Part shown: positions 1 to 17,203 of the stretch, one piece after another
Position numbering within the stretch: the first letter of the stretch is position 1
How the letters are laid out: every line of letters starts with the position of its first letter
Origin: Pseudomonas sp. MTM4
GTDB taxonomy: Bacteria; Pseudomonadota; Gammaproteobacteria; Pseudomonadales; Pseudomonadaceae
Assembly: GCF_019355055.1 (NCBI RefSeq)
Contig: NZ_CP048411.1
Location: forward strand, 4,139,001 to 4,203,000
Reading direction: 5' to 3'
Length of the DNA: 64,000 bases
The notes under the pieces: generated by a model
What the model was told of the DNA's origin: nothing
What the model saw: only the letters and a program-made list of their open reading frames with translations
Databases searched by the model: none
Translations under genes and position numbers: made by a program

Positions 1-503
1 CCCAGGACGAAACGCCCGACGGCGTACTGGCGCAATGACTCGCTGCGTTCCACGGCATAACCCAGGGCGACATCCGCATCGCCGCCGGCCACCGCGCGCG
101 CGGCCTCCTCGGAGCCAGCCGAGCGCACGGTGACCCGCAGCATCGGATAGCGGGTCAGCAGCTGTTGCAGAACCATCGGCAGGAAACTGCTGTTCAGACC
201 TTCCACCGAGACGATGGACAGCTCGCCGCGGCGCAATCCCTTGAGTGCGTCCAGCTCGCTGACCATACGGTGCTCGTCCTGCAGAACGGTGATCACATGC
301 AGCGAGAAGATCTCACCAGCCGCGGTCAGCCGCAGCCCGCCGGGCAGGCGCTCGAACAACGGCGAGCCGATTTCCTCTTCCAGTTGCAACAGCTGACGAT
401 TGACTGCCGAAGAGGCGACGTGCAGCCGCCGCGCCGCTTCGCGAATGGAGCCGCAGCGGCGGATCATGTCGAAATACTTCAGCGCACGGGCGTGAATATG
501 CAT
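1..503 (-). CDS. LysR-family transcriptional regulator (3' end beyond window)
   Basis: The 5' part of a LysR-type regulator whose C-terminus lies outside the window. Translation starts at ATG 503-501 (MHIHARALKYF) and stays open to base 1, about 167 residues. Residues 1-60 form the winged helix-turn-helix with typical LysR wording (GSIREAARRLHVASSAVNRQ, then LEEEIGSPLFER), and the effector-binding domain begins near residue 90. It is co-directional with the TetR gene, which ends 9 bases upstream of its start. It may control the oxygenase/ABC island to the right, but its target cannot be read from the sequence. Confidence 0.9.
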   Translation of the reverse strand, partial: MHIHARALKYFDMIRRCGSIREAARRLHVASSAVNRQLLQLEEEIGSPLFERLPGGLRLTAAGEIFSLHVITVLQDEHRMVSELDALKGLRRGELSIVSVEGLNSSFLPMVLQQLLTRYPMLRVTVRSAGSEEAARAVAGGDADVALGYAVERSESLRQYAVGRFVL

Positions 504-512
504 GGCGATGTC

Positions 513-1214
513 CTAGGTCCGTCGCGCCCGCTCGCCGGTGGTTTGAACTGTCGCTGCTGGAAGCGCCAGCCCGCAACCCTTGAGGATGACCCGCACGAGG
601 TTGTCGGTCGCGTGAGCGAAATCGTTTTTGGTCATGCGCTTGCCGTTGATGCGCAGGATCTGGTCGGAGAAGTCGGCGTAATGCTGGGTACCGGCCCAGA
701 TGAGGAATATCAGGTGCATCGGGTCGACCGGGTCCATCTTGCCTGCCGCAATCCAGGCCTCGAAGACCGCCGCGCGGCCGCGGAACCAGTTGCGGTAGTC
801 CTGGTTGAAATGCTCGGACAGGCATTCGCAGCCGCTGATGACTTCCATGGCGAAGATCTTCGAGGCCTGCGGGTGGCGGCGGGAGAATTCCATCTTGATG
901 CGTATGTAGTCGGCCAATGCAATAGCCGGATCGTCATCGACGGTGAGGTCGTCGAAGGCGGTATCCCAGAGTTCCAGGATGTGTCGCATTACCTCGACGT
1001 ATAGCCCCAGCTTGCTGTTGAAGTAGTAGTGCAGGTTCGCCTTGGGCAGCCCGGCGCGGGTGGCGATGGCGTTCATGCTGGTGCCCTTGAAGCCGTAACG
1101 GGCGAATTCTTCCGCCGCCGCGGCGAGGATGGTTTCCTCGTTCTGCTGGCGGATGCGGCCGGCGGGTTTGCCCGTGGCGGTGTACAGCGGCTGCGGTGCT
1201 TCGTTCTTGTTCAT
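513..1214 (-). CDS. TetR-family regulator, RutR-like
   Basis: A 233-residue TetR-type repressor. The N-terminal helix-turn-helix lies at residues 23-70 (ILAAAAEEFARYGFKGTSMN then GLPKANLHYYF). The C-terminal part (WIAAGKMDPVDP, LIFLIWAGTQHYADF) resembles the YcdC/RutR C-terminal domain, a branch whose best-known member senses uracil and thymine and controls pyrimidine and purine catabolism. That fits a setting with purine-type deaminases and the remnant of a nucleobase permease just upstream. The ATG at 1214-1212 was chosen because it opens the reading frame. Effector and targets are inferred, not visible. Confidence 0.88.
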   Translation of the reverse strand: MNKNEAPQPLYTATGKPAGRIRQQNEETILAAAAEEFARYGFKGTSMNAIATRAGLPKANLHYYFNSKLGLYVEVMRHILELWDTAFDDLTVDDDPAIALADYIRIKMEFSRRHPQASKIFAMEVISGCECLSEHFNQDYRNWFRGRAAVFEAWIAAGKMDPVDPMHLIFLIWAGTQHYADFSDQILRINGKRMTKNDFAHATDNLVRVILKGCGLALPAATVQTTGERARRT

Positions 1215-1334
1215 AGTCCCTTATCCGAAGAGCGCGTTGACGTCCGTACGCCACCGCATGGGTTCAAGCCCGCTGCGTGCTGGCGACGATGGCGGGTTCG
1301 CTCCGCTCGTGCAGCAGTAGGATCGCCGCCAGCG

Positions 1335-1451
1335 GGTGACGATGCCGGCGAAGCTGGCGAGGATGTGCTGCCGGGCGGCGAAGATGGCCGGGGTTGGAGC
1401 GGGGCGGTCGTCCAGGCCATAGATCAGGTCGGACTCGGCGTTTTCTTGCAT
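1335..1451 (-). pseudogene. Remnant of NCS2 nucleobase permease (N-terminus only)
   Basis: On the minus strand, ATG 1451-1449 opens a frame whose first 39 residues (MQENAESDLIYGLDDRPAPT, continuing through FAARQHILASFAGIVT) match the N-terminus of NCS2 uracil/xanthine permeases, where the LIYGLDDRP and LQHxLASFVGIIT wording is highly characteristic. After the Thr the family expects PPLIIGGAL; here the frame runs into unrelated RWRRSYCC sequence and ends about 77 codons later without membrane segments. About 90 % of the transporter is therefore missing. It sits directly upstream of the RutR-like gene in the same orientation, as though a deletion removed the permease body. Confidence 0.72.
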
Positions 1452-2154
1452 GCAGTAATCTCGACGCGCACGGGAAAATTGCGGGCTTTGTCGCCTGTCT
1501 TGTCTTCGCCTACTGCAAGAAGCTGTCCAGTCGCTTAGGTTTGTCCGCGTGCGCAGCGACCGGCTACGCGGCGGCTGCACGGATTTGGCGATTTTCCCTT
1601 CATGCGCCGCGGCATGGCTGAACCTGCGCTATGAGTCCAGGCGAAGCGCTTGTCTGCACCAAAAATGGTCCGGCTGGTACGCGCTTGCCCGTTTTTGTCG
1701 CGGTGGGCGAGGCGGTGCGGTATATCGAGCCGAGCTCGCCGTTGCCCCCGCATGCCAAGTGAAAAAGCTGTCCGATGCGTCAGTTAGAGCGATTCGCATC
1801 GGCTCGCCTGCTCCTCGTCCCGGTCTCGGAAAAAGCTGGCACAGCTCGTGCTACGTCACTCAGCGAGTAGAAGCGGTTAGCGTCGATCGAATCTTCCGAC
1901 GACGTGGGACATTGCTCTTGCGGCCCTCATGGCCGCACGCCCTGTTTTGCACGGGGTGCTTGTTCTCGCCCCTCAAGGGCTCGACAGGAGAGAGGTCAAC
2001 CGCCATGCGCAATGTCGCGTCGCTCGTTCCTTGCTGCAGCCGTCCGGTGCCGATAGGCCGGATGCTATCGCCTCGCTTTCCTGTGCTTCGTTCGCCTGCT
2101 GGCTGCCTCTGGCAGCCGGCGGCATCACCGTGCCTTGCCGATGGAGTTATCCCT
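1452..2154. other. 703-bp gap before the oxygenase/ABC operon
   Basis: No convincing gene. The frame of the downstream binding protein is open back to 1549, but the upstream translation has no protein-like character and no ribosome binding site. A perfect 6-bp GC stem (GCGGCC at 1920-1925 with GGCCGC at 1931-1936) and further short stems at 1936-1990 suggest a structured leader, but no known riboswitch was recognised. The operon promoter should lie here. Confidence 0.5.
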
Positions 2155-3177
2155 ATGAAAACGATGGAACCAGGACGTCCTGCGTCCAGATTGTGCAAGT
2201 TGGTTCGCCGGGCGCTGCTGCCCATGACGCTGCTCGGCACTGCCTTGGCTGCCGCCTCGGCACAGGCCAACGATAAGCTGACACTGCTCACCTCTTGGTA
2301 TGCCCAGGCCGAACATGGTGGCTTCTACCAGGCTGTGGCCGAGGGCATCTACGAGAAGCACGGCCTGGACGTGACCGTGAAGATGGGCGGTCCGCAGGTC
2401 AACGGCATGCAGTTGCTGGTGGCGCGCAAGGCTGATGTGATCGTCGGCTACGACTTTCAGATTCTCAAAAGCGTTGAGCAGGGCCTGCCGGTGGTGGCTA
2501 TCGGCGCATGCTTTCAAGGCGACCCGCAAGGGTTGCTCACCCACGGTGACGTCAAGGGCCTCGACGGCCTGAAGGACAAGACCATTCTGGTCGCAACCTC
2601 CGGACAGACGTCCTGGTGGCCCTGGCTCAAGGCCAAGTACGGGCTGAGCGACACTCAGACGCGACCTTATACCTTCAACCTGCAGCCCTTTTTCGCCGAT
2701 CCGAACACCGCGCAGCAGGCCTACGCCAGTTCCGAGCTGTTCCAGGCGCGCCAACAGGGGGTGGACGCCAACTTCTACCTGTTCGCCGACCACGGTTATC
2801 CGCCCTATGGCTCGACCCTGGTGACCCGCAACGACCTCATCGAGTCGCGGCCCGATGTGCTGCAACGCTTCTATGACGCCACCATGGAGGGCTGGAAGAG
2901 CTATCTCGCCGACCCGGCGCCGGGCAATGCGCTGATCAAGCAGGACAACCCCAACATGACGGATGCGCATATCGCCTGGGCCCTTGAGCGCATGAAGGAA
3001 TTTCAGCTGGTCGCGGGCGGCGATGCGGCCACCGGCGGTATCGGCGTGATGACCGACGCGCGTTGGCAGAAGACCCGCGACTACATGGTCGAGGCCGGCC
3101 TGCTCGGCGAATCCATGGACTTCAAAAAGGGCTACGACCTGCGCTTCGCCAACGGCGCGCAGAAGGTGCTGCCGTAA
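2155..3177 (+). CDS. ABC transporter substrate-binding protein, NMT1/THI5-like (first copy)
   Basis: Periplasmic binding protein of about 340 residues. ATG 2155 is preferred over the open frame upstream because it begins a clean signal peptide: basic KLVRR, a hydrophobic stretch, then ASAQA before NDKLTLL. The mature start (TSWYAQAEHGGFYQAVAEGI) is the NMT1/THI5-like signature; that family binds thiamine precursors, pyrimidines, riboflavin, taurine-like or aromatic ligands. It opens a same-strand gene run, 74 bases before the Rieske oxygenase, and shares the ATPase and permease at 6427-8080 with a second binding protein at 4384. The ligand is not deducible; context favours a purine-like ring. 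Confidence 0.88.
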   Translation: MKTMEPGRPASRLCKLVRRALLPMTLLGTALAAASAQANDKLTLLTSWYAQAEHGGFYQAVAEGIYEKHGLDVTVKMGGPQVNGMQLLVARKADVIVGYDFQILKSVEQGLPVVAIGACFQGDPQGLLTHGDVKGLDGLKDKTILVATSGQTSWWPWLKAKYGLSDTQTRPYTFNLQPFFADPNTAQQAYASSELFQARQQGVDANFYLFADHGYPPYGSTLVTRNDLIESRPDVLQRFYDATMEGWKSYLADPAPGNALIKQDNPNMTDAHIAWALERMKEFQLVAGGDAATGGIGVMTDARWQKTRDYMVEAGLLGESMDFKKGYDLRFANGAQKVLP

Positions 3178-3251
3178 CGCGTACCCGACCATTCATTTTC
3201 GAGCTCGGCGCCTGATCGCCGGGCCGCGTAAGACCTGATGAGGAAAACACC

Positions 3252-4277
3252 ATGTTAGTTACCCAACAGCCTGTGCTGCGTCGCTTCTGGTATGCACTGA
3301 TGCCCACCTCGAAGCTCGCCGAAGGTCCGCAGCCATTCACACTGCTCGGCGAACAGCTGGTGCTGTGGCAGAAGCCCGACGGCACACCGGTTGCCATGCG
3401 GGACCGCTGCTGCCATCGCACTGCCAAACTGTCCAAGGGCTTCGTCAGCGAAGCGGGCAACATCGCCTGTGGTTATCACGGCTGGGAATACGATTGCAGT
3501 GGTACCTGCGTGAAAATCCCGCAGAATCCCGAAGGCATGATTCCGCGTGGCGCCAAGGTCGAGTCCTTTCACTGCCAGGACCGCTACGGTTACGTCTGGG
3601 TCGCGCTGGATGACCCGTTGCAGCCGATCCCGGAATTTCCCGAGGACGGCGCTCCCGGCTACCGGCGCATCTTCCAGTTCTACGAGGAGTGGAAAACCAG
3701 CCCGGTTCGGGTGATGGAGAACTCGTTCGACAACTCGCACTTCTCCTTTGTGCACAAGGCCAACTTCGGCCTGTTCGACCAGCCGAAACCGTCGAGCTAC
3801 GAGTTCCGCGAGACCGATTATGGCTTCGAGGCTGAAACGCTGGTGCCGATCCGCAACCCCGATGCGAGTTTTCGGATCACCGGCTCCACCGAGCCGATCA
3901 CTAATCGCCACCTGATCAACCGCTACTACCTGCCGTTCTCGCGGCGCTTCGGCTGCATGTACCCGGAAAGCGGCATCCATCACATCATCTACAACTGCGC
4001 CACGCCCATCGACGACGGTCGGCTGATGCTCGTCCAGTGGCTCTATCGCAACGACAGCGAAGAGCAATGCTCGACGCAGGAGCTGATTGACTGGGATGCA
4101 GCCATCACAGCCGAGGATCGCGACATTCTCGAAGCCACCGACTACGACGCCTGTGTCGATACCCGTCGTCGGGTGGAACTACACATGCCGTCGGACAAGC
4201 CGGGCTTGGTGATCCGCAAACAGCTACTGGCGCTGCTCGAGGCGCACGGCGAGAACGAAGTATTCATGACTGCCTGA
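3252..4277 (+). CDS. Rieske non-heme iron oxygenase, alpha subunit
   Basis: A 341-residue terminal oxygenase. The [2Fe-2S] Rieske site is visible as C53-x-H55 and C73-x2-H76 (CCHRTAKL, ACGYHGW). The mononuclear iron site shows D160-x2-H163-x4-H168 (ENSFDNSHFSFVH), and a carboxylate ligand is expected near residues 295-305. Length and single-subunit form match the VanA / caffeine-demethylase (NdmA/B) type, which hydroxylate or N-/O-dealkylate small ring compounds using electrons from a separate reductase. Such a reductase is encoded at 9766 in the same gene run. Between two THI5-like binding proteins and upstream of purine-type deaminases, oxidative dealkylation of a modified purine is the leading guess. 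Confidence 0.9.
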   Translation: MLVTQQPVLRRFWYALMPTSKLAEGPQPFTLLGEQLVLWQKPDGTPVAMRDRCCHRTAKLSKGFVSEAGNIACGYHGWEYDCSGTCVKIPQNPEGMIPRGAKVESFHCQDRYGYVWVALDDPLQPIPEFPEDGAPGYRRIFQFYEEWKTSPVRVMENSFDNSHFSFVHKANFGLFDQPKPSSYEFRETDYGFEAETLVPIRNPDASFRITGSTEPITNRHLINRYYLPFSRRFGCMYPESGIHHIIYNCATPIDDGRLMLVQWLYRNDSEEQCSTQELIDWDAAITAEDRDILEATDYDACVDTRRRVELHMPSDKPGLVIRKQLLALLEAHGENEVFMTA

Positions 4278-4383
4278 GTTCGACCCGTAATGCCCCGCGG
4301 ACAGCTCGCGCAGACGAGGCAGCCCGCGGGAACGGATTCGCCGCAATGACGCGGCGGACCTGCATAAGCCATGGAGACCGTGC

Positions 4384-5409
4384 ATGAACGCCACTACGAC
4401 TTCGATTTCACGACCCCTGCGCCGGGTATTGACCACTCTGGCCCTGCCGCTGGGTCTGCTGGCCGCATCGGCGAACGCCGCCGAACCCCTTCGTTTCGGC
4501 CTCAACTGGTTGCCGCAGGCCGAAATGTGCGGCTTCTACCAGGCCCAGGCCACCGGGCTGTACGACCAGGCCGGGTTGGCCGTCGAGTTGGTGCCCGGCG
4601 GGCCGGACCGCAACATTCCTTTGCAGGTGGCCACCGGTGACCTGCAGATGGGCATGGGCTCGAGCTTCACCACCTTGAACATGGTTCAGCAGGGCATCCC
4701 AGCGCGCACCGTCGCCGCCTTTCTGCAGAAGGACCCGCAGACGCTGGTCGCCCATGCCGACCAAGGCGTCGAGACGCTCGAGGACCTCAAGAGCCGGCCG
4801 ATCATGGTCGCCAAATTTTCGCAGGCCGAGTTCTGGCAATTCCTCAAGCAACGTTACGGCTTCAGTGATAGCCAACTGCGCCCCTACGCCTATTCCTCGG
4901 TGCCTTTCCTGGCCAATCCCAAGGCGGTGCAACAGGGCTACATCACCGAGGATGCGCACTTGCTCGGCAAGGCGTTGGACAAGCCGCCGGTGTCGATCCT
5001 GCTGGCCGACTACGGTTACGAAAACTATGCCACCACCGCCTTCGCCACGCAGGCGTATCTCGATGAGCACCGCGACGCCGTTGCCCGCTTCGTCGATGCC
5101 AGCCGCAAGGGGTGGCGCGAATGCGCGACCGGCGACTATAGCCCGGCGATGCAGGCGATCCTCGCGGCCAATCCTGAGCATGGCGAGGAGCTGTTCCACT
5201 TCAAGATGAAACAGATGCGCGAGCGCGGATTGATCGATAGCGGCGATGCCGTGACCGACGGTCCCGGGGCGATGAGTGACGCCCGCTGGCAGGGCTTCTT
5301 CGAGACCATGAGCGCCGCGGGCGTGTACCGATCCGATCTCGATTACCAGCAGGCCTATACCCTGGAATTCGCCAATCCGGCTGCGGCCGTGGCCAAGCAG
5401 GAGCCCTGA
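4384..5409 (+). CDS. ABC transporter substrate-binding protein, NMT1/THI5-like (second copy)
   Basis: A 341-residue periplasmic binding protein, a divergent paralogue of the protein at 2155. The signal peptide ends at ASANA before AEPLRFGLNWL. The mature start (LPQAEMCGFYQAQATGLYDQ) aligns with the first copy, and both end in the same arrangement (MSDARWQGFFETM here, MTDARWQKTRDYM in copy one). Its stop is one base from the start of the 2-oxoglutarate-type oxygenase, so the two are probably co-translated. Two binding proteins beside one ATPase/permease pair suggest two related ligands feeding one channel. Confidence 0.88.
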   Translation: MNATTTSISRPLRRVLTTLALPLGLLAASANAAEPLRFGLNWLPQAEMCGFYQAQATGLYDQAGLAVELVPGGPDRNIPLQVATGDLQMGMGSSFTTLNMVQQGIPARTVAAFLQKDPQTLVAHADQGVETLEDLKSRPIMVAKFSQAEFWQFLKQRYGFSDSQLRPYAYSSVPFLANPKAVQQGYITEDAHLLGKALDKPPVSILLADYGYENYATTAFATQAYLDEHRDAVARFVDASRKGWRECATGDYSPAMQAILAANPEHGEELFHFKMKQMRERGLIDSGDAVTDGPGAMSDARWQGFFETMSAAGVYRSDLDYQQAYTLEFANPAAAVAKQEP

Positions 5410-5410
5410 G

Positions 5411-6433
5411 ATGAGCCAGGACAGCATTCCAGTCATCGACCTTGGCCCGTTCCTGACCGGCGATGCGGCGGCACGCCATGATGTAGCGCGTCGGTTCGGC
5501 GCAGCGTTCGAAACCTTCGGTTTCGCCAGCATCGTCAACCACGGCGTCGACCCCGCCTTGGTCGAGCGCATGTACAGCGAGGCCGAGCATTTCTTCGCCC
5601 AATCGTTCGCCGACAAGCTGGTCTGGAACCCGCCGGAACAGACCAAGGGCCGTGGCTACCTGCCTCTTGGCATCGAGAGCGTAGCCGCAACGCTCGCCGG
5701 CGAAACGCCACCCGATTTGTGCGAGGCATTGGTTTTCGCCTCGCTGCAGCGCGAGCGGGCCGGGCAGGGCTTGCCGAACATCTGGCCGACCGAGCCGCCG
5801 ACGCTGGGCGAGTCGGTCAATGCCTGGTTCGATGCGATGTACCTGTTGTGTCAGCGCCTGATGCAGCTGTCGGCACTGGCCCTGGAGCTTCCGGACGATT
5901 ATTTCGAGGCGAGTCATCGCGAACCCTCATTGGCGCTGCGCTTCGTCAATTACCCCGACCAGCCCGAGGCGCCGCGCGAGGGCCAGCTGCGCTACGGCGC
6001 GCACCATGACTACGGCGGGCTGACCATCTTGCGCCCCGACCAGGCGCCGGGCGGCCTGCAAGTGTGCGGCCTCGACGGGCAGTGGCGTGATGTCAACGCG
6101 CCGGCCGATGCCTTCGTGATCAACGTTGGTGACCTGATGGCACGCTGGACCAATGACCGCTGGCGTTCGACGCTGCACCGGGTTGTCAACCCGCCACGCA
6201 CGCTGACCGGCTCGACCCGGCGGCTGTCGCTGGTGGCCTTCACTGGGCCAGCAGCAGGCACCGAAGTGGCCTGCCTGCCGAGCTGCTGCAGTGCCAAACA
6301 GCCACCGCGCTACGCGCCAGTGGAGGCGGGTGCCTACATCCGCGCCAAGCTGGACCAATCCATGCAGATCTCCACACCGGCGGCCGATCTCCCGGCCGTG
6401 CACGGACCCGACCGGAGCACTCAACCATGCTGA
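5411..6433 (+). CDS. Fe(II)/2-oxoglutarate-dependent oxygenase, isopenicillin N synthase-like family
   Basis: A 340-residue cytosolic oxygenase. The N-terminal DIOX_N segment (IPVIDLGPF, then FGFASIVNHGV) and the core are both present. Iron ligands are H198-x-D200 (YGAHHDYGGLTIL) and H256 (STLHRVVNPP), and R271-x-S273 is the usual 2-oxoglutarate clamp, so the enzyme looks active. Bacterial members hydroxylate or dealkylate small molecules, including xanthine and modified nucleobases in some lineages. It follows the second binding protein by one base and its 3' end overlaps the ATPase gene by 7 bases, tying an intracellular oxidation to the transporter. Substrate unknown. Confidence 0.88.
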   Translation: MSQDSIPVIDLGPFLTGDAAARHDVARRFGAAFETFGFASIVNHGVDPALVERMYSEAEHFFAQSFADKLVWNPPEQTKGRGYLPLGIESVAATLAGETPPDLCEALVFASLQRERAGQGLPNIWPTEPPTLGESVNAWFDAMYLLCQRLMQLSALALELPDDYFEASHREPSLALRFVNYPDQPEAPREGQLRYGAHHDYGGLTILRPDQAPGGLQVCGLDGQWRDVNAPADAFVINVGDLMARWTNDRWRSTLHRVVNPPRTLTGSTRRLSLVAFTGPAAGTEVACLPSCCSAKQPPRYAPVEAGAYIRAKLDQSMQISTPAADLPAVHGPDRSTQPC

Positions 6434-7266
6434 TGCATTCAATAGCCGTCGACACGGCTCGTCCTGCGCCCGGTGCGCCCGCCAACGAGGCGGTTCCAGT
6501 GCTGCTGGCCAATCAGGTCGAGAAGACCTACCCCAATGGCACGCATGCGTTGCAGCGACTGAAACTGGCCATCGGCCGCGGCGAATTCGTCTCGTTGCTG
6601 GGCCCGTCCGGCTGCGGCAAGAGCACGCTGCTGAAAATGTTCGCCGGGCTCGAAGCACCGTCGGCCGGGCATGTGCGCTGGTGGGGCAAGGGTGACCTCA
6701 ACGCGACCCAGACCGATCAGCGCATGGCCATGGTGTTCCAGGAGGCGACGCTGATGCCCTGGGCCAAGGTTGCCGACAACGCCCGGTTGCCGCTGGATCT
6801 GGCCGGCGTACCGAAAGCCGAGGGCAACGCGCGCGTTCAGGCAGCGCTGGAGTTGGTGGGCCTCGGGACGTTTGGCGAGGTTTACCCTCGCGAGCTTTCG
6901 GGGGGCATGCAGATGCGTGCGTCCATCGCGCGTGCGCTGGCTACGCAACCGAACCTGCTGCTGATGGACGAGCCTTTCGGTGCGCTCGACGAGTTCACCC
7001 GCAACCGGCTGGACAGCGATCTGCGCGACCTCTGGCGGGACCGCGACCTGACCGTGGTGTTCGTCACCCACAGCATCTACGAGGCGGTGTTTCTCTCCTC
7101 GCGGGTGGTGGTGATGGGCGCACGCCCGGGCCGGGTGCTGGCCGACGTGGCCATCGAGGGACCGGACGTGCGCGACGAGGCGTTCCGCACCAGCCCCGCC
7201 TTCATCGAACAATGCGCGCAACTGTCCCGGTTGCTCGTCGAAGCCAACGCCGATGCCGGCCACTGA
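6427..7266 (+). CDS. ABC transporter ATP-binding protein (SsuB/TauB/ThiZ type)
   Basis: A 279-residue nucleotide-binding subunit. Walker A is GPSGCGKST (residues 59-67), the signature is LSGGMQMRASIARAL, Walker B is LLLMDEPFGALDEFTR, and the switch histidine is in VTHSIYEAVFLS. It energises uptake of the ligand delivered by the binding proteins at 2155 and 4384, together with the permease 10 bases downstream. The start at 6427 overlaps the end of the upstream oxygenase; a second ATG at 6433 in the same frame is an alternative. The class normally moves sulfonates, nitrate, taurine or thiamine precursors. Confidence 0.92.
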   Translation: MLMHSIAVDTARPAPGAPANEAVPVLLANQVEKTYPNGTHALQRLKLAIGRGEFVSLLGPSGCGKSTLLKMFAGLEAPSAGHVRWWGKGDLNATQTDQRMAMVFQEATLMPWAKVADNARLPLDLAGVPKAEGNARVQAALELVGLGTFGEVYPRELSGGMQMRASIARALATQPNLLLMDEPFGALDEFTRNRLDSDLRDLWRDRDLTVVFVTHSIYEAVFLSSRVVVMGARPGRVLADVAIEGPDVRDEAFRTSPAFIEQCAQLSRLLVEANADAGH

Positions 7267-7276
7267 GGTGATCACC

Positions 7277-8080
7277 ATGGACAAGCGCCCCCAACCCCTG
7301 TTGGCCGATCCGCGCTTTCAGCGCATCGCGGCACCCTTGCTGGTCGGCCTGGTGCTGCTCGGCGGCTGGCAATTCCTCTGCGTCGCGCTGAAGGTCCCGA
7401 CGTATCTGGTGCCGACGCCCCAGGATATCGGCCGAACGCTGATTAGCGATGGCCCGATACTGCTCGGCGCGCTGATGGTGACGCTGAAGATTACCTTCCT
7501 GTCGTTCGCGCTCGCAGTGGTGCTCGGCGTGATCGCCGCGTTTCTGTTCGTGCAGAGCCGAGTGATCGAAGCCAGCCTGTTCCCCTACGCGATTCTGCTG
7601 CAGGTCACGCCAGTCGTGGCGATCGCGCCGCTGATCATCATCTGGGTGAGCAATACCACGCTGGCCTTGACCATTTGCGCGACGCTGGTGGCGATCTTCC
7701 CGATCATTTCCAACACCGTGCTGGGCCTGCGCAGCGTCAATCCAGGCCTGCTCAATCTGTTCCGGCTGAACCGCGCGAGCCGCTGGCAGACCCTGGTGCG
7801 CTTGCGCATTCCCAGCGCCTTGCCGTATTTCTTTGGCGGCCTGCGCATCGCCTCGGGGCTGGCGTTAATCGGCGCGGTGGTCGCAGAGTTCGTGGCCGGT
7901 ACTGGCGGTACCGGGGCGGGATTGGCCTATCAGATTCTGCAGGCCGGCTTTCAGTTGAATATTCCGCGCCTGTTCGCCGCGCTCCTTCTCATCGCCATGA
8001 CCGGCGTACTGCTGTTCAGCCTGATGGCCGCGCTGGCGCGCTACAGCCTTGGGCACTGGCACGAGAGCGAGCAGGGGTAA
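7277..8080 (+). CDS. ABC transporter permease (SsuC/TauC type)
   Basis: A 267-residue inner-membrane permease with about six hydrophobic segments. The cytoplasmic coupling loop is visible near LNLFRLNRASRWQTLVRLRI and just after. The frame is open from an ATG at 7253, but ATG 7277 has a good GAGGTG ribosome binding site at 7265-7270 with correct spacing, so it is preferred. It completes the importer with the ATPase gene and ends the transporter part of the island. The following 250 bases contain two REP-like hairpins. Confidence 0.9.
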   Translation: MDKRPQPLLADPRFQRIAAPLLVGLVLLGGWQFLCVALKVPTYLVPTPQDIGRTLISDGPILLGALMVTLKITFLSFALAVVLGVIAAFLFVQSRVIEASLFPYAILLQVTPVVAIAPLIIIWVSNTTLALTICATLVAIFPIISNTVLGLRSVNPGLLNLFRLNRASRWQTLVRLRIPSALPYFFGGLRIASGLALIGAVVAEFVAGTGGTGAGLAYQILQAGFQLNIPRLFAALLLIAMTGVLLFSLMAALARYSLGHWHESEQG

Positions 8081-8123
8081 CGCAGCCACGAGCCGTCGGG
8101 CCCACCGCAAACATCAAAACGCC

Positions 8124-8241
8124 GGTGGGCTAAAGCCCACCCTACTGCCGGATCTGAGCTCGCCTCGATTATCCATCCGCAGGTCACGCCGGATTGCATC
8201 GCGGCCCTCGGTTGGCTCGGAGTAGGGTGGGCCTCAGCCCA
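8124..8241. repeat. Pair of REP-like palindromes in opposite orientation
   Basis: First hairpin: GGTGGGCT (8124-8131) with AGCCCACC (8134-8141), followed by CTAC. Second: GTAGGGTGGGCCTCAGCCCA at 8222-8241. The pair reads ...GCCCACCCTAC ... GTAGGGTGGGC..., the inverted arrangement typical of intergenic REP doublets in Pseudomonas. A related GCCCACCCTAC stretch recurs near 55815-55825. It lies between the permease and deaminase genes and could modulate mRNA stability or end the upstream message. Confidence 0.65.
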
Positions 8242-8332
8242 TCACTGCCATCAGACCGCCCGGCCACCCTACCTTTCATGCATCGCGGGACCGCTTGCCG
8301 TCGCGATCGACTGTCTACAGGATTCTGGACCT

Positions 8333-9769
8333 ATGAAAACCAACACCAACTGGCTAATCCGCAACGCCAGCGCCATTCTCACCGGCCTGGCAGGTGATGC
8401 AGCACGTCACGCCGGGCCTGATATCCGTATCGTCGAGGGACGCATCGCGGTGCTTGGGCAACTCGAACCACAGCCGGGGGAGCAGGTCATCAATGCGCGC
8501 GACTGCGTGGTCTATCCGGCCTGGGTCAATACTCATCACCACCTGTTCCAGTCATTGCTCAAGGGCGAGCCCCAGGGACTCAATCAGACGCTGACGCCCT
8601 GGCTAGCCGCCACGCCTTATCGTTTCCGCGGTGCCTTCGACGAAGACAGCTTCCGTCTGGCCGCCCGCGTCGGGCTGGTCGAGCTGGTGCGTTCGGGCTG
8701 CGGCACGGTAGCCGACCACCACTACCTGTATTACCCCGGCATGCTGTTCGACAGTGCGGCGATCCTGTTCGAGGAGGCCGAGGCCTTGGGGGTGCGTTTC
8801 GTGCTCTGTCGTGGCGGCGCGACGCAAACCCGTCAGCTCGAAGCCGACTTGCCACAGGCACTGCGTCCTGAGCGCATCGATAACTACCTCGCCGATGTGG
8901 AGCGCCTGGTCGCGGCGTACCACGACCCGGCTGCCGATGCCTGGCGCCGGGTGGTCATGGCGCCGACCACGACATTGCATTCGACCACGCCTGAAGAGTT
9001 GCGCCTGACCGCAGACGTGGCGCGCCGTATGGGCATTCGCCTGCACAGCCACCTGTCCGAGACCGTCGACTATCTCGACGCGGCGCGCGCCAAGTTCGGC
9101 ATGACTCCGGTGCAATTCTGCGTCGAGCAAGGCTGGGTCGGGTCGGACGTCTGGTTCGCGCATCTGGTCAAGTTGTTGCCCGAGGAAATCCGGCTGCTCG
9201 GCGAGACGGGTACCGGTATCGCCAGTTGTCCACAGAGCAACGGCCGGCTCGGAAGCGGCATCGCCGACCTGCCTGCGCTGGAAGCGGCGGGTGTGACCGT
9301 GTCGCTGGGCGTCGATGGCGCCGCGTCCAACGAGGCCGCCGACATGCAGTCCGAAGCGCACGCCGCCTGGCTGTTGCAGCGTGCCCGGAAAGGCGAACGT
9401 GCGCAGCCGCGCTATGACGGCGGCACCTTCGAAGGCGGCGCCGATGCCGCCAGCATCGAGGACGTGCTGCGCTGGGGTACCGCCGGCGGTGCCAAGGTGC
9501 TGGGCCTTGACGCCATCGGTACGCTGCAGGTCGGTCAGGCTGCGGACCTGGCCATCTACCGCCTCGACGACCCGCGCTATTTCGGGCTGCACGATCCGGC
9601 CATCGGTCCCATCGCCAGCGGCGGTCGCGCCCATTTACAGGCGCTGCTGGTGGGTGGTCGGCGGGTGGTCGAAGACGATGTCATCCCGGACCTCGACATG
9701 GCTGAACTGGGACGGAGCGCGCGCGAAGCCATGACGCGGCTGATGCAGCGCGCGGAGCCACTGGTGTGA
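8333..9769 (+). CDS. Amidohydrolase, guanine/8-oxoguanine deaminase-like
   Basis: A 478-residue metal-dependent deaminase of the amidohydrolase superfamily. The metal site HxH is H68-x-H70 (VNTHHHLFQ), the later ligands are in RLHSHLSET and WFAHLVKLL, and the catalytic Asp is in SLGVDGAASNEAADM. This fold and wording are shared by 8-oxoguanine deaminases, guanine deaminases and the triazine hydrolase AtzB, so the leaving group is ammonia or an alkylamine on a purine- or triazine-like ring. The stop codon overlaps the GTG start of the reductase by 4 bases (GTGA), a sign of translational coupling. It is distinct from the deaminase at 11866, so the two probably handle different intermediates. 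Confidence 0.88.
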   Translation: MKTNTNWLIRNASAILTGLAGDAARHAGPDIRIVEGRIAVLGQLEPQPGEQVINARDCVVYPAWVNTHHHLFQSLLKGEPQGLNQTLTPWLAATPYRFRGAFDEDSFRLAARVGLVELVRSGCGTVADHHYLYYPGMLFDSAAILFEEAEALGVRFVLCRGGATQTRQLEADLPQALRPERIDNYLADVERLVAAYHDPAADAWRRVVMAPTTTLHSTTPEELRLTADVARRMGIRLHSHLSETVDYLDAARAKFGMTPVQFCVEQGWVGSDVWFAHLVKLLPEEIRLLGETGTGIASCPQSNGRLGSGIADLPALEAAGVTVSLGVDGAASNEAADMQSEAHAAWLLQRARKGERAQPRYDGGTFEGGADAASIEDVLRWGTAGGAKVLGLDAIGTLQVGQAADLAIYRLDDPRYFGLHDPAIGPIASGGRAHLQALLVGGRRVVEDDVIPDLDMAELGRSAREAMTRLMQRAEPLV

Positions 9770-10713
9770 GCTGGTTCGATATGCGCGTGCGCGCCCTGCG
9801 TGAAGAAGCACGCGACATTCTTGGCGTTGAGCTGGCGGTGGAGGATGGCGCGCCGCTGCCCTTCGACTGGTTGCCTGGTGCCCATGTCGATCTGCGTCTG
9901 CCGGATGGGCTGGTAAGGCAGTATTCGTTAGTCAGCCGGCCGGCCGATGGTCATCTGTATCTCGCCGTCAAGCGCGAGCCTGAATCGCGTGGTGGCTCCC
10001 GCTGGCTGCACGAGGCACTTCGCCTGGGCCAGATACTGCGGGTCGGCGCGCCGCGTAATCTGTTCGCCCTTGATGATGGCTCGGACGCGGTCATGCTGAT
10101 TGCGGGCGGCATCGGTATCACGCCCTTGCTGGCGATGTACCGCAGCTGTCGCGAGACCGGCAGGCCGGTCCGGCTGCATTGTTTCGCACGCGAGCAATCA
10201 GGGCTGGCTTTTCACCGGGAGCTCGAAGGGCAAGCGGACGTGTTTCTGCATGTGGGTCTGGACCGTGCTGCGCTGCAGGATCGCCTAACCGAATTGCTGT
10301 CAGAACACGCCACGAAGGCCGGTCTGTATTTCTGCGGTCCTGCGGGCTTCACGCAACAGGTGCGCGAGCGTGCATTAGCTGAAGGTTGGCCGGAGTCGGC
10401 GCTGCACCAGGAGCATTTTCAGGCCACTAAAGAGCCGACCCCAGCAGGGAGCTTTGAACTGGTGTTGTCTGCCAGTGGCAGGCAGGTGCAGGTTGGAGCG
10501 GGCGAATCGGTTGTTGCGGCCGCAGCTCGTGCCGGGGTCGAGATTCCGCTTTCGTGTGGCATGGGAATATGCGGTTGCTGCCTGACCCGGGTGCTCGACG
10601 GCGTACCGTCGCATTGCGATGACTACCTGGATGCTGATCGCAAAGCCTCTGGCAATTGGATCTTGCCCTGTGTCTCGGGCTGTTCAGGTGCGCGGCTGGT
10701 ATTGGACTGCTGA
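9766..10713 (+). CDS. VanB/PDR-type flavin reductase with C-terminal ferredoxin domain
   Basis: A 315-residue oxygenase reductase in phthalate-dioxygenase-reductase order. The flavin site is R51-x-Y53-S54 (VRQYSLVSR), the NAD(P)H site is GGIGITP (114-120) with FCGPAGF near 189-195, and the plant-type [2Fe-2S] domain has C264-x4-C269-x2-C272 and C302. It should pass electrons from NAD(P)H to the Rieske oxygenase at 3252; no other partner oxygenase is in the window. The GTG start at 9766 overlaps the deaminase stop; ATG 9781 is an in-frame alternative that would remove five residues. Confidence 0.92.
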   Translation: MSWFDMRVRALREEARDILGVELAVEDGAPLPFDWLPGAHVDLRLPDGLVRQYSLVSRPADGHLYLAVKREPESRGGSRWLHEALRLGQILRVGAPRNLFALDDGSDAVMLIAGGIGITPLLAMYRSCRETGRPVRLHCFAREQSGLAFHRELEGQADVFLHVGLDRAALQDRLTELLSEHATKAGLYFCGPAGFTQQVRERALAEGWPESALHQEHFQATKEPTPAGSFELVLSASGRQVQVGAGESVVAAAARAGVEIPLSCGMGICGCCLTRVLDGVPSHCDDYLDADRKASGNWILPCVSGCSGARLVLDC

Positions 10714-10756
10714 GACGAGCGCCGACATTTAAGGACAGTGGCGCTCCAGCGATGCA

Positions 10757-10782
10757 GCGCCGCCCATGGAATCGGGCGGCGC
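10757..10782. terminator. Hairpin between converging genes
   Basis: Perfect 9-bp GC stem, GCGCCGCCC (10757-10765) with GGGCGGCGC (10774-10782) and an 8-base loop. It lies between the stops of the reductase (+) and the Tsx-like porin (-). There is no clear T tract, so it may serve both directions only partly. Confidence 0.6.
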
Positions 10783-10788
10783 AGGCGA

Positions 10789-11604
10789 TCAGAAGTGAGC
10801 CTTGACGATGGCGCTGAAGGTGTTCTGGTCGGTTGGGCCTACAAAGTTTTCGCTGACGAAGCCGCCGTCCTCGATGCCGTACTTGTTCGACCAATAGTCG
10901 TACTCGATACCGACATAGAGCTTGCCAGGCGTGTAATCCAGCGCCTTGCCCAGGTCGTACTTGACCTGCGGGTTGAAGTGGAAGTTCTTCTTCAGCTCGG
11001 TGTTGCCGTTTTTCTTGTCGTTGACTATCCAGTCGATGTAGCCGTCGAAGAGAATGTCGGACTTGCCCACGGGAATGGTCATTGCCCAGGTTGGGGTTAC
11101 CTGCCACTGGCCGGAAGGCTTGCCGGTGGTGCCGTCGGGCTTACGGTAGTAGAGATTGAGGTTGAACCGATCAAAGCCGGGGATGCTCAGGTCGACGGCG
11201 GGTCCGAACAGATAGTTCTGGTTGGGAGTACCGTCATCCTGGCTTTCGCCGCGTTCATAGGTGAACGCGAGCAGCACATCCTTGATCGGCCCGAAGGACA
11301 GGTCGGTTCCGCTGATCTTGCCGAACGACAGACGTGGGCTGAACTCGCCGTAGTAGGTATGGCCTGCGCCGCCGGACAGGCCGTTGTACCACTTGTTGTC
11401 GACGAACAGGAATATGTCCCCCCAGGTCCAGCCACTGGCATGTTCGAAGGTGATCGTCTGCTGTATTTCGCCAGCATCGACTTTGAAGTCCTTGCCGTAG
11501 AGGTAGGTGAGGCTGTTGTTCTGCCAAAGCATAGGGGAAGCCATGGACTGGCCGGCGAACAGCAGGCCAGCGGCGAGGCCGGCCAGGGTGAGGCTTGCTT
11601 TCAT
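10789..11604 (-). CDS. Outer-membrane nucleoside-type channel, Tsx/OmpK-like
   Basis: A 271-residue beta-barrel protein. It has a signal peptide (MKASLTLAGLAAGLLFAGQS, ending MASPMLW), alternating aromatic strands such as LTYLYGKDF and FLFVDNKWY, and a C-terminal Phe (VKAHF) as in outer-membrane proteins. The wording fits the Tsx/OmpK family that lets nucleosides and bases cross the outer membrane. The ATG at 11604 has an AGGAGAG site just upstream; a TTG one codon earlier is not needed. Flanked by an oxygenase/ABC operon and an 8-oxoguanine deaminase, it probably supplies their purine-like substrate to the periplasm. Confidence 0.85.
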   Translation of the reverse strand: MKASLTLAGLAAGLLFAGQSMASPMLWQNNSLTYLYGKDFKVDAGEIQQTITFEHASGWTWGDIFLFVDNKWYNGLSGGAGHTYYGEFSPRLSFGKISGTDLSFGPIKDVLLAFTYERGESQDDGTPNQNYLFGPAVDLSIPGFDRFNLNLYYRKPDGTTGKPSGQWQVTPTWAMTIPVGKSDILFDGYIDWIVNDKKNGNTELKKNFHFNPQVKYDLGKALDYTPGKLYVGIEYDYWSNKYGIEDGGFVSENFVGPTDQNTFSAIVKAHF

Positions 11605-11865
11605 CAATCTCTCCTTGAGGGTAGATCCGCTGGCTTAAGTTGGCCGAACGGTCAGGCATTGATGCCTAAGCAAGCGGCGGGCCAGCTTTCAAGGAGGTCT
11701 TCATGTATATATAAGTCCTTGAATTTAATCATTTTTTATAGGTGGCTGGCGTATGTCGAGAGGCCGCGAGCAGTACGCAAGCTGACCAATCGATCAGGCT
11801 GCCTCAACCTGGCGCACCGCTGCGGTGTGCTGCACGCCGGTGTGGCAGCCGAATCGGCTCGATGA
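11605..11865 (-). promoter_or_regulatory. AT-rich upstream region of the porin gene
   Basis: The segment 11702-11742 is markedly AT-rich in an otherwise GC-rich area (TATATATAAG, AATTTAATCATTTTTTATAG). Reading on the minus strand it lies about 100-140 bases before the porin start and is a plausible promoter or activator-binding region. No specific operator was identified. Confidence 0.4.
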
Positions 11866-13221
11866 TCAGCCGCTGATCAGTTGCGCGGCGGCCTGGCGGT
11901 GATCGGCGATCAGTCCTGCCACATCGAGGCCTTCGATCTGCCCGTCAACCACTTGCCAGCGACCGCCGATCATCACGCGGTCGGCACGATCGGCGCCGCA
12001 GAGCAACAGCGCAGACAGCGGGTCGTGGCTGCCGGAGAAGCGCAGCTCGTTTAGCTTGAACATCGCGAGATCGGCCTGTTTTCCCACAGCCAGCTCACCA
12101 ATGTCGTCGCGGCCCAGCAGCCGCGCCGAGCCGCGGGTGGCCCAGCCCAATGCCAGCTCAGGGGTGATCCTCTCGGCGCCGTAGCGCAGGCGCTGCAGAT
12201 ACAGCGCCTGGCGAGCTTCGAGCATCATGTTGGATGCGTCGTTGGAGGCCGAGCCGTCCACGCCCAGGCCAATGGGGGCGCTAGCAGCTTCCAACTCCAG
12301 TGTCGGGCAGATGCCGGACGCCAGGCGCATGTTGGAACTCGGGCAGTGAGAGATGCCGGTGCCGGCCTGACCGAGGCGGGCGATTTCATCGGCGTTGAAG
12401 TGGATGCCGTGGGCCAGCCAGGTGCGGTCGGACAGCCAGCCGACGCTGTCCAGATAATCCACGGTGCGCAGGCCGAAGCGCTCAAGGCAGAAGTCTTCTT
12501 CATCGAGGGTTTCCGCCAGATGGGTGTGCAGGCGAACGTCCAGGCGCTCGGCCATGGAGGCGCTGGCGCGCATGATCTCCGGGGTCACCGAGAAGGGCGA
12601 GCAGGGCGCCAGGGCGATCTGGATCTGCGCGCCGTCGCCGCGCTCGTGGTAGCGCCCGATCAGCCGTTCGCTGTCGGCCAGGATCACCTCGGCTTCCTGC
12701 ACTGTCTGTTGCGGTGGCAACCCGCCGTCGGCTTCGCCCAGGCTCATCGAGCCGCGTGTGAGCATCGCGCGCATGCCAAGGTCGCGCACGGCCTGGACCT
12801 GCACGTCGATGGCTTCTTCCAGTCCTTGGGGAAACAGATAGTGGTGATCGGCGGCGGTGGTGCAACCTGACAGCAGCAATTCGGCCAAGGCGACCTTACT
12901 TGCCAGTTCGAGCTTTTCCGGGGTCAGCCGTGCCCAGACCGGATAGAGCGTTTTCAACCAAGGAAACAGCGGCTGGTTGACCACAGGGCCCCAGGCGCGG
13001 GTGAGTGTCTGATAGAAGTGGTGATGGGTGTTGATCAGGCCCGGCAGTACCACATGCTCACGGGCATCGAAGGTGCTGTCGACGGGGACGGTTGGCGTCT
13101 GGCCGGCGGCGAGCAGTTCGGTGATGACGCCATTGTCTACGACCAGTCCGCCGGAAGCGTCCTGATCGTTGGCAGTGAAAATAGCGAGGGGGTTCTTGAT
13201 CCAGATGCGGGTAGCGGCCAT
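11866..13221 (-). CDS. 8-oxoguanine deaminase
   Basis: A 451-residue amidohydrolase that closely recalls the P. aeruginosa PA0142 type, which converts 8-oxoguanine to uric acid and ammonia. The start (RIWIKNPLAIFTAND) is distinctive; metal ligands are H66-x-H68 (INTHHHFYQ), with VRLHTHLAET, WLAHGIHF and LGVDGSASNDASN following. It acts in the cytosol. The gene runs convergent to the catabolic operon but belongs to the same island, with the Tsx-like porin 261 bases beyond its 3' end. The product urate would enter ureide catabolism, whose later genes are not in this window. Confidence 0.88.
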   Translation of the reverse strand: MAATRIWIKNPLAIFTANDQDASGGLVVDNGVITELLAAGQTPTVPVDSTFDAREHVVLPGLINTHHHFYQTLTRAWGPVVNQPLFPWLKTLYPVWARLTPEKLELASKVALAELLLSGCTTAADHHYLFPQGLEEAIDVQVQAVRDLGMRAMLTRGSMSLGEADGGLPPQQTVQEAEVILADSERLIGRYHERGDGAQIQIALAPCSPFSVTPEIMRASASMAERLDVRLHTHLAETLDEEDFCLERFGLRTVDYLDSVGWLSDRTWLAHGIHFNADEIARLGQAGTGISHCPSSNMRLASGICPTLELEAASAPIGLGVDGSASNDASNMMLEARQALYLQRLRYGAERITPELALGWATRGSARLLGRDDIGELAVGKQADLAMFKLNELRFSGSHDPLSALLLCGADRADRVMIGGRWQVVDGQIEGLDVAGLIADHRQAAAQLISG

Positions 13222-13558
13222 TGCCGGCTCCTCCTGAAATGATGGGTTCAGAAAAGCCAGCTCAGTTATGCCCTGTCTGCTGATCCAGGGGGACGCCTAG
13301 TCGGGGGCGCCTAGTCGGGACGCCCCTTGGGCGCGAGGCGCGGACACACGATAGTGGCTTGCGGTTGGGTTGTCACCCGGAATGCGCGTTCCCCTACGAC
13401 CGGACATCGGTAACGCTGAGCGCATTGCCCAGCTGATTTGCTTGGCGAATGGCCGCCCTGAAAAACGAAACCCCACCGAAGTGGTGGGGTTCGTCAACAG
13501 CTCGCAAAGCTGAGCGCGGCCTTCAGGCCTACAAAGCACACGCCTCTCCGCTCTCCGA
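13222..13558. other. Intergenic region with the bra operon terminator
   Basis: No gene supported. It holds the terminator of the minus-strand bra operon (13469-13491) and the upstream region of the 8-oxoguanine deaminase. A minus-strand frame at 13297-13539 reads through the terminator hairpin and was rejected. Confidence 0.6.
13469..13491 (-). terminator. Rho-independent terminator of bra operon
   Basis: Stem AACCCCACC (13469-13477) with GGTGGGGTT (13483-13491), loop GAAGT. Read on the minus strand the stem is followed by TTTCGTTTTTC, a T-rich tail, about 70 bases past the braG stop. Confidence 0.88.
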
Positions 13559-14260
13559 TCAACCGCCCAGGTAAGCGTCGCGCACCTTGGGGTTGCTCAG
13601 CAGCTCTTCACCGCTGCCTTGCATGACGATGCGTCCATTCTCCAGCACATAACCACGGTCGGCCAGCTTGAGCGCCTGGTTGGCGTTCTGCTCGACCAGG
13701 AAGACGGTCACACCATCCTCGCGCAGCTGCTCGATGATCTCGAAGATCTGCTGGATGATGATCGGCGCCAGGCCCAGCGACGGCTCGTCGAGCAGCAGCA
13801 GCTTGGGCTTGCTCATCAATGCACGGGCGATAGCGAGCATCTGCTGCTCGCCGCCGGACATGGTGCCGCCGCGTTGCTGGTAGCGTTCCTTCAGCCGCGG
13901 GAACAACTGCAGCGCTTTGTCCAACTGCTCCTGGAAGTCGCCCTTGTTGGTGAAAAATCCTCCCATGGCGAGGTTTTCCTCCACAGTCAGGCGGGCAAAG
14001 ATGCGCCGCCCTTCAGGCACCACGGCGATGTCCTTGCGCATGATGTCGCAGGTCTGTTTTCCGACCAGTTCTTCGCCCTCGAAGCGGATGCTGCCTTCGG
14101 AGGCCATCGGCGTACCGCAGAGGGTCATCAGCAGTGTGGATTTGCCTGCACCGTTGGCGCCGATCAGCGTGACGATTTCGCCCTTGCGGACCTCGACGTC
14201 GACGTTATGCAGCGCCTGGATCTTGCCGTAGCAGGTCGAGACGTTTTCGAAATACAGCAT
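13559..14260 (-). CDS. braG: Branched-chain amino acid ABC transporter, ATP-binding protein BraG/LivF
   Basis: A 233-residue ATPase, last gene of the high-affinity branched-chain amino acid importer. Walker A is GANGAGKST, the signature MSGGEQQMLAIARALM, and Walker B LLLLDEPSLGLAP; the C-terminal VLENGRIVMQGSGEELL is typical of LivF. It pairs with BraF on the cytoplasmic face and starts 2 bases after the braF stop. Gene order braC-D-E-F-G is the same as in P. aeruginosa. Confidence 0.95.
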   Translation of the reverse strand: MLYFENVSTCYGKIQALHNVDVEVRKGEIVTLIGANGAGKSTLLMTLCGTPMASEGSIRFEGEELVGKQTCDIMRKDIAVVPEGRRIFARLTVEENLAMGGFFTNKGDFQEQLDKALQLFPRLKERYQQRGGTMSGGEQQMLAIARALMSKPKLLLLDEPSLGLAPIIIQQIFEIIEQLREDGVTVFLVEQNANQALKLADRGYVLENGRIVMQGSGEELLSNPKVRDAYLGG

Positions 14261-14262
14261 GG

Positions 14263-15030
14263 TTACGCCTCCCCCAGATAGGCTTTGATCACGTCCGGAT
14301 TGTCGCGAATCTGCTCCGGAGTGCCATCTGCCAGCGGGCAGCCCTGGTTGATCACGACGATATGGTCGGAAATGCTCATGACCAGCTTCATGTCGTGCTC
14401 GATGAGCAACACCGTCACGCCATGGGTGTCGCGCAGCATGCCGATCAGCGCCTTGAGGTCCTCGGTTTCCCTCGGGTTGAGGCCGGCCGCCGGCTCGTCG
14501 AGCATGAGGATGCGCGGGCGCGTCATCATGCAGCGGGCGATTTCCAGGCGGCGTTGCTGACCATAGGCGAGCGTGCCGGCTGGTCGGTTGGCGATATCCG
14601 TCAGGTTGACCTGCTCGAGCCAGTGCGCGGCGAAATCCATCGCTTCGTGCTCGCTCTCGCGAAACGCCTTGGTCTTCAACAAACCGGAGATGAAGCCGGT
14701 GTTGAGGTGGCGATGCTGGGCGACCAGCAGGTTTTCCACCGCGGTCATGTCCTTGAACAGCCGGACGTTCTGGAAGGTGCGAACCACGCCCTTGCGTGCG
14801 ATCTTGTGGCCGGGCAGGCCCTGGATCGCTTCGCCGTCCAGCAGAATTTCGCCGGAGGTTGGCTGATAGAAGCCGGTCAGGCAGTTGAAGACGGTGGTCT
14901 TGCCCGCACCGTTGGGGCCGATCATTGAGACCACTTGTTTATCGTGTACGGTCAGGCCCACCCCATTGACGGCCAACAGGCCGCCGAAGCGCATGGTCAG
15001 GCCGCTTACTTCGAGAATCGGGCGGCTCAT
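14263..15030 (-). CDS. braF: Branched-chain amino acid ABC transporter, ATP-binding protein BraF/LivG
   Basis: A 255-residue ATPase. Walker A is GPNGAGKTT, the signature [16 protein letters not shown], Walker [16 protein letters not shown], and the LivG-type C-terminus ([13 protein letters not shown]) is present. ATG 15030 was chosen because it overlaps the braE stop by four bases (ATGA) and begins [11 protein letters not shown]; an 18-codon upstream extension lacks domain sense. It forms the second half of the ATPase pair with BraG. Confidence 0.95.

Positions 15031-16279: not shown

Positions 16280-16283
<4 letters not shown>
15027..16283 (-). CDS. braE: Branched-chain amino acid ABC transporter permease BraE/LivM
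   Basis: A 418-residue inner-membrane permease. Two or three N-terminal hydrophobic segments precede the conserved LivM core ([39 protein letters not shown]). The coupling loop region reads [20 protein letters not shown], followed by [16 protein letters not shown]. It overlaps braD upstream and braF downstream by four bases each, as expected for a tightly coupled operon. Confidence 0.95.

Positions 16284-17203
<920 letters not shown>

Follow-up and report, generated by a model that had tools for sequence, protein, structure and literature searches.

The window analysed here is a stretch of 64,000 nucleotides of Pseudomonas sp. MTM4 (contig NZ_CP048411.1; G000:C1:4139001-4203000), taken from a single-contig genome of 4.69 Mb, and near its start lies a real catabolic operon of a described kind that is headed by a xanthine riboswitch. 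An earlier note, made from the letters alone, had recognized the gene families and their places, and these stand, the open reading frames being open and the domains matching; the riboswitch, overlooked there, was detected by an Rfam search of positions 1-20000 of the window. The operon is composed as follows:

1860-1922, plus strand: xanthine riboswitch aptamer, NMT1 motif (RF03054; 54.5 bits, gathering threshold 36, E 7.2e-10)
2155..3177, plus strand: substrate-binding protein 1 (SBP1), NMT1/THI5 type
3252..4277, plus strand: Rieske oxygenase (Rieske and VanA_C domains)
4384..5409, plus strand: substrate-binding protein 2 (SBP2), NMT1/THI5 type, a local add-on (PF09084, 89.8 bits)
5411..6433, plus strand: 2-oxoglutarate (2OG)/Fe(II) oxygenase of the isopenicillin-N-synthase type, a local add-on (DIOX_N and 2OG-FeII_Oxy domains)
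6427..7266, plus strand: ABC importer ATPase (PF00005)
7253..8080, plus strand: ABC importer permease (open reading frame whose place beside the ATPase and deaminase is conserved)
8333..9769, plus strand: deaminase 1, clade of PDB 2PAJ, PRK12393 (NF009059 'amidohydrolase family protein' passed, 777.9 bits, cut-off 543)
9766..10713, plus strand: FAD/NAD/[2Fe-2S] reductase that presumably works with the Rieske enzyme (Fer2 and NAD-binding domains)

The junctions from which the earlier note had read co-translation are exact by coordinates and letters, namely the GTGA at 9766-9769, where the reductase gene overlaps that of deaminase 1, the 7-base overlap at 6427-6433 and the single base at 5410 separating SBP2 from the 2OG gene.

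The riboswitch and its purine-breakdown setting

The aptamer was aligned over its full length (1-56), with two pairs flagged as non-standard, and the SBP1 start lies 232 nt downstream of it. One RF03054 copy was found in the genome when 150 of 628 first-look candidates were scored. For a riboswitch model (R1), 13 copies from 10 sources were used, the window and nine relatives; these copies match it by construction and share 20 invariant columns. In addition, a purine-rich stretch resembling a ribosome-binding site (GAGAGAGGT type) starts 57-64 nt past the aptamer and is followed by an ATG in the window (1987-2155) and in 8 of the 21 Pseudomonas-type loci examined (L006, L007, L008, L012, L013, L016, L056 and L060). 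By hand count, L007 and L008 have a leader frame of 49-50 codons that ends at the SBP1 start, and in the window the frame continues into SBP1; it looks as if the leader frame in those two loci could be the switched one.

The NMT1-motif RNA has been described as an OFF switch, with a KD of about 3.7 uM for xanthine and about 25 uM for urate (Yu & Breaker 2020, PMC7373994; here and below, in the excerpts of that paper that were available), and by analogy the xanthine-sensing RNA probably shuts the operon off in this strain. The genes reported behind the motif are NMT1/THI5-like, pcbC, tauA, hcaE, PDR, DIOX_N, PRK12393, tsx and, rarely, tadA; they are predicted to act upstream of xanthine and urate, degraders of oxidised purines not being among them, and the precise functions of the oxygenases in the regulon are said there not to be established (PMC7373994). 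Therefore, the gene set, which the earlier note had presented as undescribed, is not so, because its families are in that list. The structure of the xanthine riboswitch has also been solved, according to excerpts of PMC8266621. The window has in common with the listed regulon the riboswitch and the NMT1/THI5, pcbC/DIOX_N, hcaE, PDR, PRK12393 and tsx genes, with a tadA-like gene further upstream. However, unlike the regulon as excerpted, it joins importer, Rieske, 2OG, deaminase and reductase genes in one operon, and this operon stands beside a purine pathway that is without a riboswitch.

A long purine-breakdown cluster lies next to the operon and comprises GuaD, XdhABC, OHCU decarboxylase and allantoinase. 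Upstream of the window, matches above the cut-off (bits/cut-off) were obtained for guanine deaminase GuaD (708/351), XdhC (328/161.6), XdhB (1337.7/849.5), allantoinase PuuE (536.9/424.6) and OHCU decarboxylase (230.1/96.25), with GuaD and XdhB/XdhC located about 13-18 kb before the window and the XdhB match 14 kb before it. The same region contains two NCS2-type permeases, a nucleoside-type ABC set, a LysR gene, another THI5-type ABC importer and another porin of the Tsx type (77% to that of the window). It also holds two 2OG oxygenases that are 33-36% identical to the window's and a deaminase resembling TadA, whose 55 bits fall short of the TadA cut-off of 150. Several of these names were given by reading; the nucleoside-type set, the LysR gene, PuuD and HIU hydrolase were named without a family search, and the PuuD candidate had no NCBIfam match. 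Across the 30 kb of this purine region, no riboswitch was found by Rfam, the R1 model or the genome search. Part of it (L078, 14545-19460) forms a second module, composed of the TadA-like deaminase, the THI5-type importer, an alpha/beta hydrolase and a 2OG oxygenase, likewise with no riboswitch match.

The regulon in related bacteria

Relatives were collected as 69 named loci in one scan with deaminase 1 as the sole query, a sample biased to this enzyme and rich in close kin, in which its closest named relatives came from Pseudomonas lopnurensis and Stutzerimonas species (88-92%). R1 matched 87 times in the window, these loci and two stretches upstream: that of the window, three weak ones (25-28 bits; once in L064 and twice in L065) and 83 strong ones (at least 42 bits) spread over 59 of the 69 loci. 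It was verified that each of the 83 strong copies has downstream of it, no more than 700 nt away and in the same orientation, one of the four genes looked for, namely a binding protein (59), a 2OG oxygenase (13), a Tsx-type porin (10) or a flavin oxidase (1), so that in 10 relatives the porin has a xanthine riboswitch of its own. A strong R1 match was absent from ten loci (L011, L025, L057, L063-L067, L070 and L073); in L011 and L070, the sequence starts with deaminase 1 or within it.

Among 99 Pseudomonadaceae genomes, searched for the riboswitch with 50 candidates per genome and stricter filters, nine carried it and 14 had a deaminase-1 relative (E <= 1e-100). All nine were within these 14, the other five having no riboswitch match. 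The nine include the genome of the window and those of three species already represented by loci (G043, G070 and G091, corresponding to L006, L020 and L010). In five of them, all of one genus, the aptamer is found 16-28 nt ahead of a match to a 43-44% deaminase. Two of these five were examined as loci L081 and L082; each has a second riboswitch copy ahead of a 2OG gene that runs divergently, and genes read as guaD, xdh and urate type lie alongside in L081, the latter two named without a family search.

Gene neighbours were counted within 6 kb of deaminase 1 in the 66 loci with enough flank. The earlier note had proposed a search for the same set in other genomes, and the set recurs: an SBP1 relative stands beside deaminase 1 in 63 of the 66 loci, the ATPase in 40 and the permease in 39, an association that exceeds chance. 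The oxygenase beside the SBP1-deaminase 1 pair is a Rieske protein alone in 27 loci, a 2OG enzyme alone in 32, both in four (L006, L009, L028 and L073, the Rieske protein of L028 being the one in the HpxD position) and neither in three; in one of the Rieske-only loci, L057, the Rieske protein is distant (34%). Since this alternation follows lineage, the cases are not independent events. In Pseudomonas, the genes most often run SBP1, Rieske, (SBP2, 2OG), ATPase, permease, deaminase 1 and (reductase), with Tsx nearby, and in enterics and Acinetobacter it is SBP1, (ATPase, permease), and deaminase 1 with a 2OG gene, with no close Rieske gene. The SBP2-2OG pair of the window is an add-on, because it recurs at 60% identity or more in two of the 66 relatives alone (L006 and L009). 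Moreover, the 2OG enzymes of the enteric locus L062 and the Pseudomonadaceae locus L081 share 60% identity with each other and 26-28% with that of the window, which makes the window's pair a different add-on.

In enterics (L028 875-7590; L062 and L089), a divergent operon was also observed, which encodes a FAD_binding_4 oxidase, another THI5-type importer and creatininase-family, RidA-type and cytosine-deaminase-like proteins, together with the reductase in L062 and L089. The combination of oxidase and RidA suggests an amine-to-imine step. In Acinetobacter (L022), a separate xanthine riboswitch stands before a relative of this oxidase, and the enteric form of the cluster is carried in L089 by a 120-kb plasmid of Klebsiella pneumoniae (NZ_CP074582.1).

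Deaminases, oxygenases and flanking genes

Results for deaminase 1 come from a protein search in which 7999 candidates were scored, and refer to the best 120 of 4525 matches; those for the Rieske protein refer to the best 120 of 2942. Among solved structures, 2PAJ was the best match to deaminase 1 (707 bits, 66.8% identity over 473 aligned residues), followed at a distance by 3HPA (256 bits, 37.5%). The motifs THHHLFQ, HSHLSE, AHL and GVDGAASNE align to 2PAJ free of gaps, with the catalytic and metal motifs in place. In a maximum-likelihood tree of 70 rows, deaminase 1 and 2PAJ fall within a clade of 60 rows (100/99), in which a group of 58 comprises the window, 55 riboswitch-bearing loci, L011 and L025. 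Loci L063-L067, which have similar importers and no strong riboswitch, have deaminases outside the 2PAJ clade. An identity as 8-oxoguanine deaminase was rejected for deaminase 1, whose NF006055 score of 398.4 bits is under the cut-off of 532.

NdmH, the N2,N2-dimethylguanine hydrolase described in excerpts of PMC13054789, is like deaminase 1 an amidohydrolase deaminase and is related there to AtzB and 8-oxoguanine deaminase; changing its residues C, Q, N and N strongly impairs activity. Deaminase 1 was rejected as an NdmH, since by hand count it has threonines (APTTTLHS) at the place of C213/Q214/N217, with no C, Q or N in either register, N165 being outside the comparison.

The earlier note had suggested placing the Rieske protein in a tree, where the island Rieske proteins form a group of their own (97/99) and NdmA and NdmB another (99/99), the deeper order being weak (77/58) with long branches; among the few references in this tree, the island group does not belong to a clade with known substrates other than purines. 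By fold, NdmA/B and saxitoxin oxygenases are the nearest. With 32% identity to NdmA and 40% to NdmB (partial) and a separate clade, the protein was rejected as a methylxanthine demethylase of the NdmA/NdmB group. Additionally, the window's Rieske protein is 88-90% identical to those of the P. chlororaphis/fluorescens group (L035, L040 and L053), whose deaminase 1 is at about 72%, and the corresponding values for L013 are 70% and 82%. It seems that lineages have exchanged the Rieske gene. In L064, L066 and L071, three consecutive Rieske genes, 54-78% identical to the window's, occur near the importer and deaminase 1.

The operon resembles HpxD/HpxE of Klebsiella in having a Rieske protein and a VanB-type reductase tied to purine use. 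The hpx cluster comprises LysR, Rieske, reductase and HpxO genes together, and such a set was observed in L028 (16049-20415; HpxO 611.8 bits, cut-off 500), 4-5 kb from the deaminase-1/2OG genes, so that the two sets are different things. The HpxD-position protein beside this HpxO is 27% identical to the window's Rieske protein and outside the island clade, and orthology with HpxD was rejected. As for the remaining proteins, the importer has a ThiY-like fold, with thiamin and FAMP binders (pyrimidine/thiamin type) nearest to SBP1, and the 2OG oxygenase has thymine dioxygenase among its PDB kin.

The operon is flanked by the following features:

513..1214, minus strand: TetR regulator with a YcdC/RutR-type C-terminus, a neighbour (PF08362, 174.9 bits)
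1335..1451, minus strand: NCS2 xanthine/uracil-type permease gene of which the first 39 residues are left, 77% identical to its intact counterpart in L007
10789..11607, minus strand: Tsx-type outer-membrane channel (PF03502, 49.3 bits)
11866..13221, minus strand: deaminase 2, 8-oxoguanine-deaminase type, a weakly linked neighbour (NF006055 703.8 bits, cut-off 532)

The earlier note had counted two deaminases in one set; both are present, but deaminase 2 is encoded on the opposite strand and has a relative near deaminase 1 in three of the 66 loci. With 43% identity to 3HPA and a position beside 3HPA/7WW2 in the tree, it is classed by its sequence as an 8-oxoguanine-deaminase-type neighbour that is rarely linked to the operon. 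Similarly, the regulator described as RutR-like keeps its TetR assignment and RutR-type C-terminus, but it scores under both RutR cut-offs (203.6 bits against 368 for TIGR03613, and 185.7 against 230), and its identification as RutR was rejected. The L016 relative of the permease remnant is a PF00860 protein, and in comparison with L007 about 1.33 kb is gone between regulator and riboswitch in the window.

The imported compound

It is very likely that the riboswitch-controlled operon imports, oxidises and deaminates a 2-amino bicycle whose product joins the xanthine pool, and that excess xanthine shuts the operon. The import, oxidation and deamination of a purine-like compound had been proposed in the earlier note and is backed by the riboswitch, the purine pathway next door, the ThiY-like importer fold and the deaminase family. 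At low xanthine, the riboswitch would leave the operon on, and the ThiY-like binding protein, the ABC importer, the oxygenase-reductase pair and deaminase 1 would be made. The substrate, a guanine-like bicycle that bears a 2-amino group and for which a pterin is the leading candidate, would probably pass the outer membrane through the Tsx-type channel before being imported. Deaminase 1 would then take off the 2-amino group and the Rieske enzyme, or the 2OG enzyme in other bacteria, would hydroxylate the ring; the product would end as xanthine and enter the adjoining xanthine-dehydrogenase/urate pathway, excess xanthine closing the riboswitch.

That the imported compound is a pterin, for example isoxanthopterin or 6-carboxypterin, is proposed tentatively, its chances being a little short of even. 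PDB 2PAJ, the nearest solved relative of deaminase 1, is presumably the isoxanthopterin deaminase reportedly assayed by Hall et al. 2010, which is said to have come from an ocean metagenome and to act on pterins and on none of the purines tested. A 45% relative found in the importer-deaminase-2OG layout was named 'Isoxanthopterin deaminase' by its depositor. The bacterial route attributed to McNutt reportedly leads from isoxanthopterin to 7-oxolumazine, tetrahydroxypteridine, xanthine-8-carboxylate and xanthine; on it, deaminase 1 and the oxygenase would take adjacent steps, and the ring-contracting enzyme would be encoded elsewhere or be among the genes without an assigned role. In the best-matching part of the literature turned up, neither 'xanthine-8-carboxylic' nor 'tetrahydroxypteridine' was found.

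Several points weigh against a pterin. Ring contraction would be needed, and no candidate gene was found for it. In the tree, 2PAJ pairs weakly (90/55) with the riboswitch-less L057, beside and outside the 58-row riboswitch group, and in the PDB it is entitled 'putative cytosine/guanine deaminase'. The compact loci L081 and L082, with one 2OG enzyme and one deaminase (41-44%) under the riboswitch, would suit a two-step purine route better. Finally, isoxanthopterine is listed among the chemicals purchased for the ligand tests reported in PMC7373994 and, in the available excerpts, is not named there as a binder.

Another possible substrate, although an unlikely one, is N-methylated guanine (1- or 7-methylguanine) from RNA turnover, which deaminase 1 would convert to a methylxanthine for N-demethylation by the Rieske or 2OG enzyme, the resulting xanthine shutting the operon. 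This is near the oxidative dealkylation of N- or O-substituted purines proposed in the earlier note, with the order reversed; however, no result demonstrates dealkylation, and the closest assayed relative of deaminase 1 reportedly takes pterins. Folate one-carbon genes located 4-7 kb from the deaminase in L087 speak for methylguanines: the vicinity of this Paracoccaceae deaminase operon contains folD and a gene whose annotation is methyltransferase/methylenetetrahydrofolate reductase (2128-4642). The aptamer tolerates some bulk at C8 and refuses N-methylxanthines (PMC7373994), which fits the pterin and methylguanine readings alike.

The breakdown of ordinary or oxidised purines, in which a molybdenum-free bypass would oxidise hypoxanthine or xanthine, or deaminate guanine, as said of Klebsiella HpxDE, appears improbable. 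The regulon is read in this way in the excerpts of PMC7373994, where the oxygenases are likened to hpxD/hpxE, and the 8-oxoguanine-type deaminase 2 stands beside the operon. However, the genome already has GuaD and XdhB/XdhC in the riboswitch-free region before the window, the Rieske protein is as distant from the HpxD-position protein as noted above, and deaminase 1, at 398 bits, is under the 8-oxoguanine deaminase cut-off of 532. Scavenging of a thiamine-type pyrimidine or other heteroaromatic, with a purely regulatory link to xanthine, is suggested by the SBP1 fold but is the least probable case, given that the gene set recurs with xanthine riboswitches and purine-type deaminases and that thiamin-pathway compounds are reported without effect on the riboswitch (excerpts of PMC7373994).

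Returning to the pterin reading, its extension to the whole xanthine-riboswitch regulon as a pterin-to-xanthine salvage system, with xanthine as the end-product brake, is more speculative and has somewhat poorer chances than the pterin substrate itself. Free pterins from folate decay, insects and other microbes would be imported, deaminated, oxidised and ring contracted, with Rieske and 2OG oxygenases interchangeable at the ring hydroxylation. Such salvage, if true, would account for a regulon that is reported with xanthine producers and without xanthine degraders.

What is new here is the riboswitch at this locus, its purine-pathway setting, the placement of deaminase 1 with 2PAJ and the alternation of Rieske and 2OG oxygenases. 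The placement with 2PAJ, together with 83 of 83 strong riboswitch copies heading genes of an import, oxidation and deamination set, which in this genome lies beside a xanthine/urate pathway, narrows the problem to a few assays. If a pterin is indeed the substrate, the decay of folates and pterins would be joined to purine metabolism, and the regulon, as a salvage system, would point to genes for the old activity converting tetrahydroxypteridine to xanthine-8-carboxylate.

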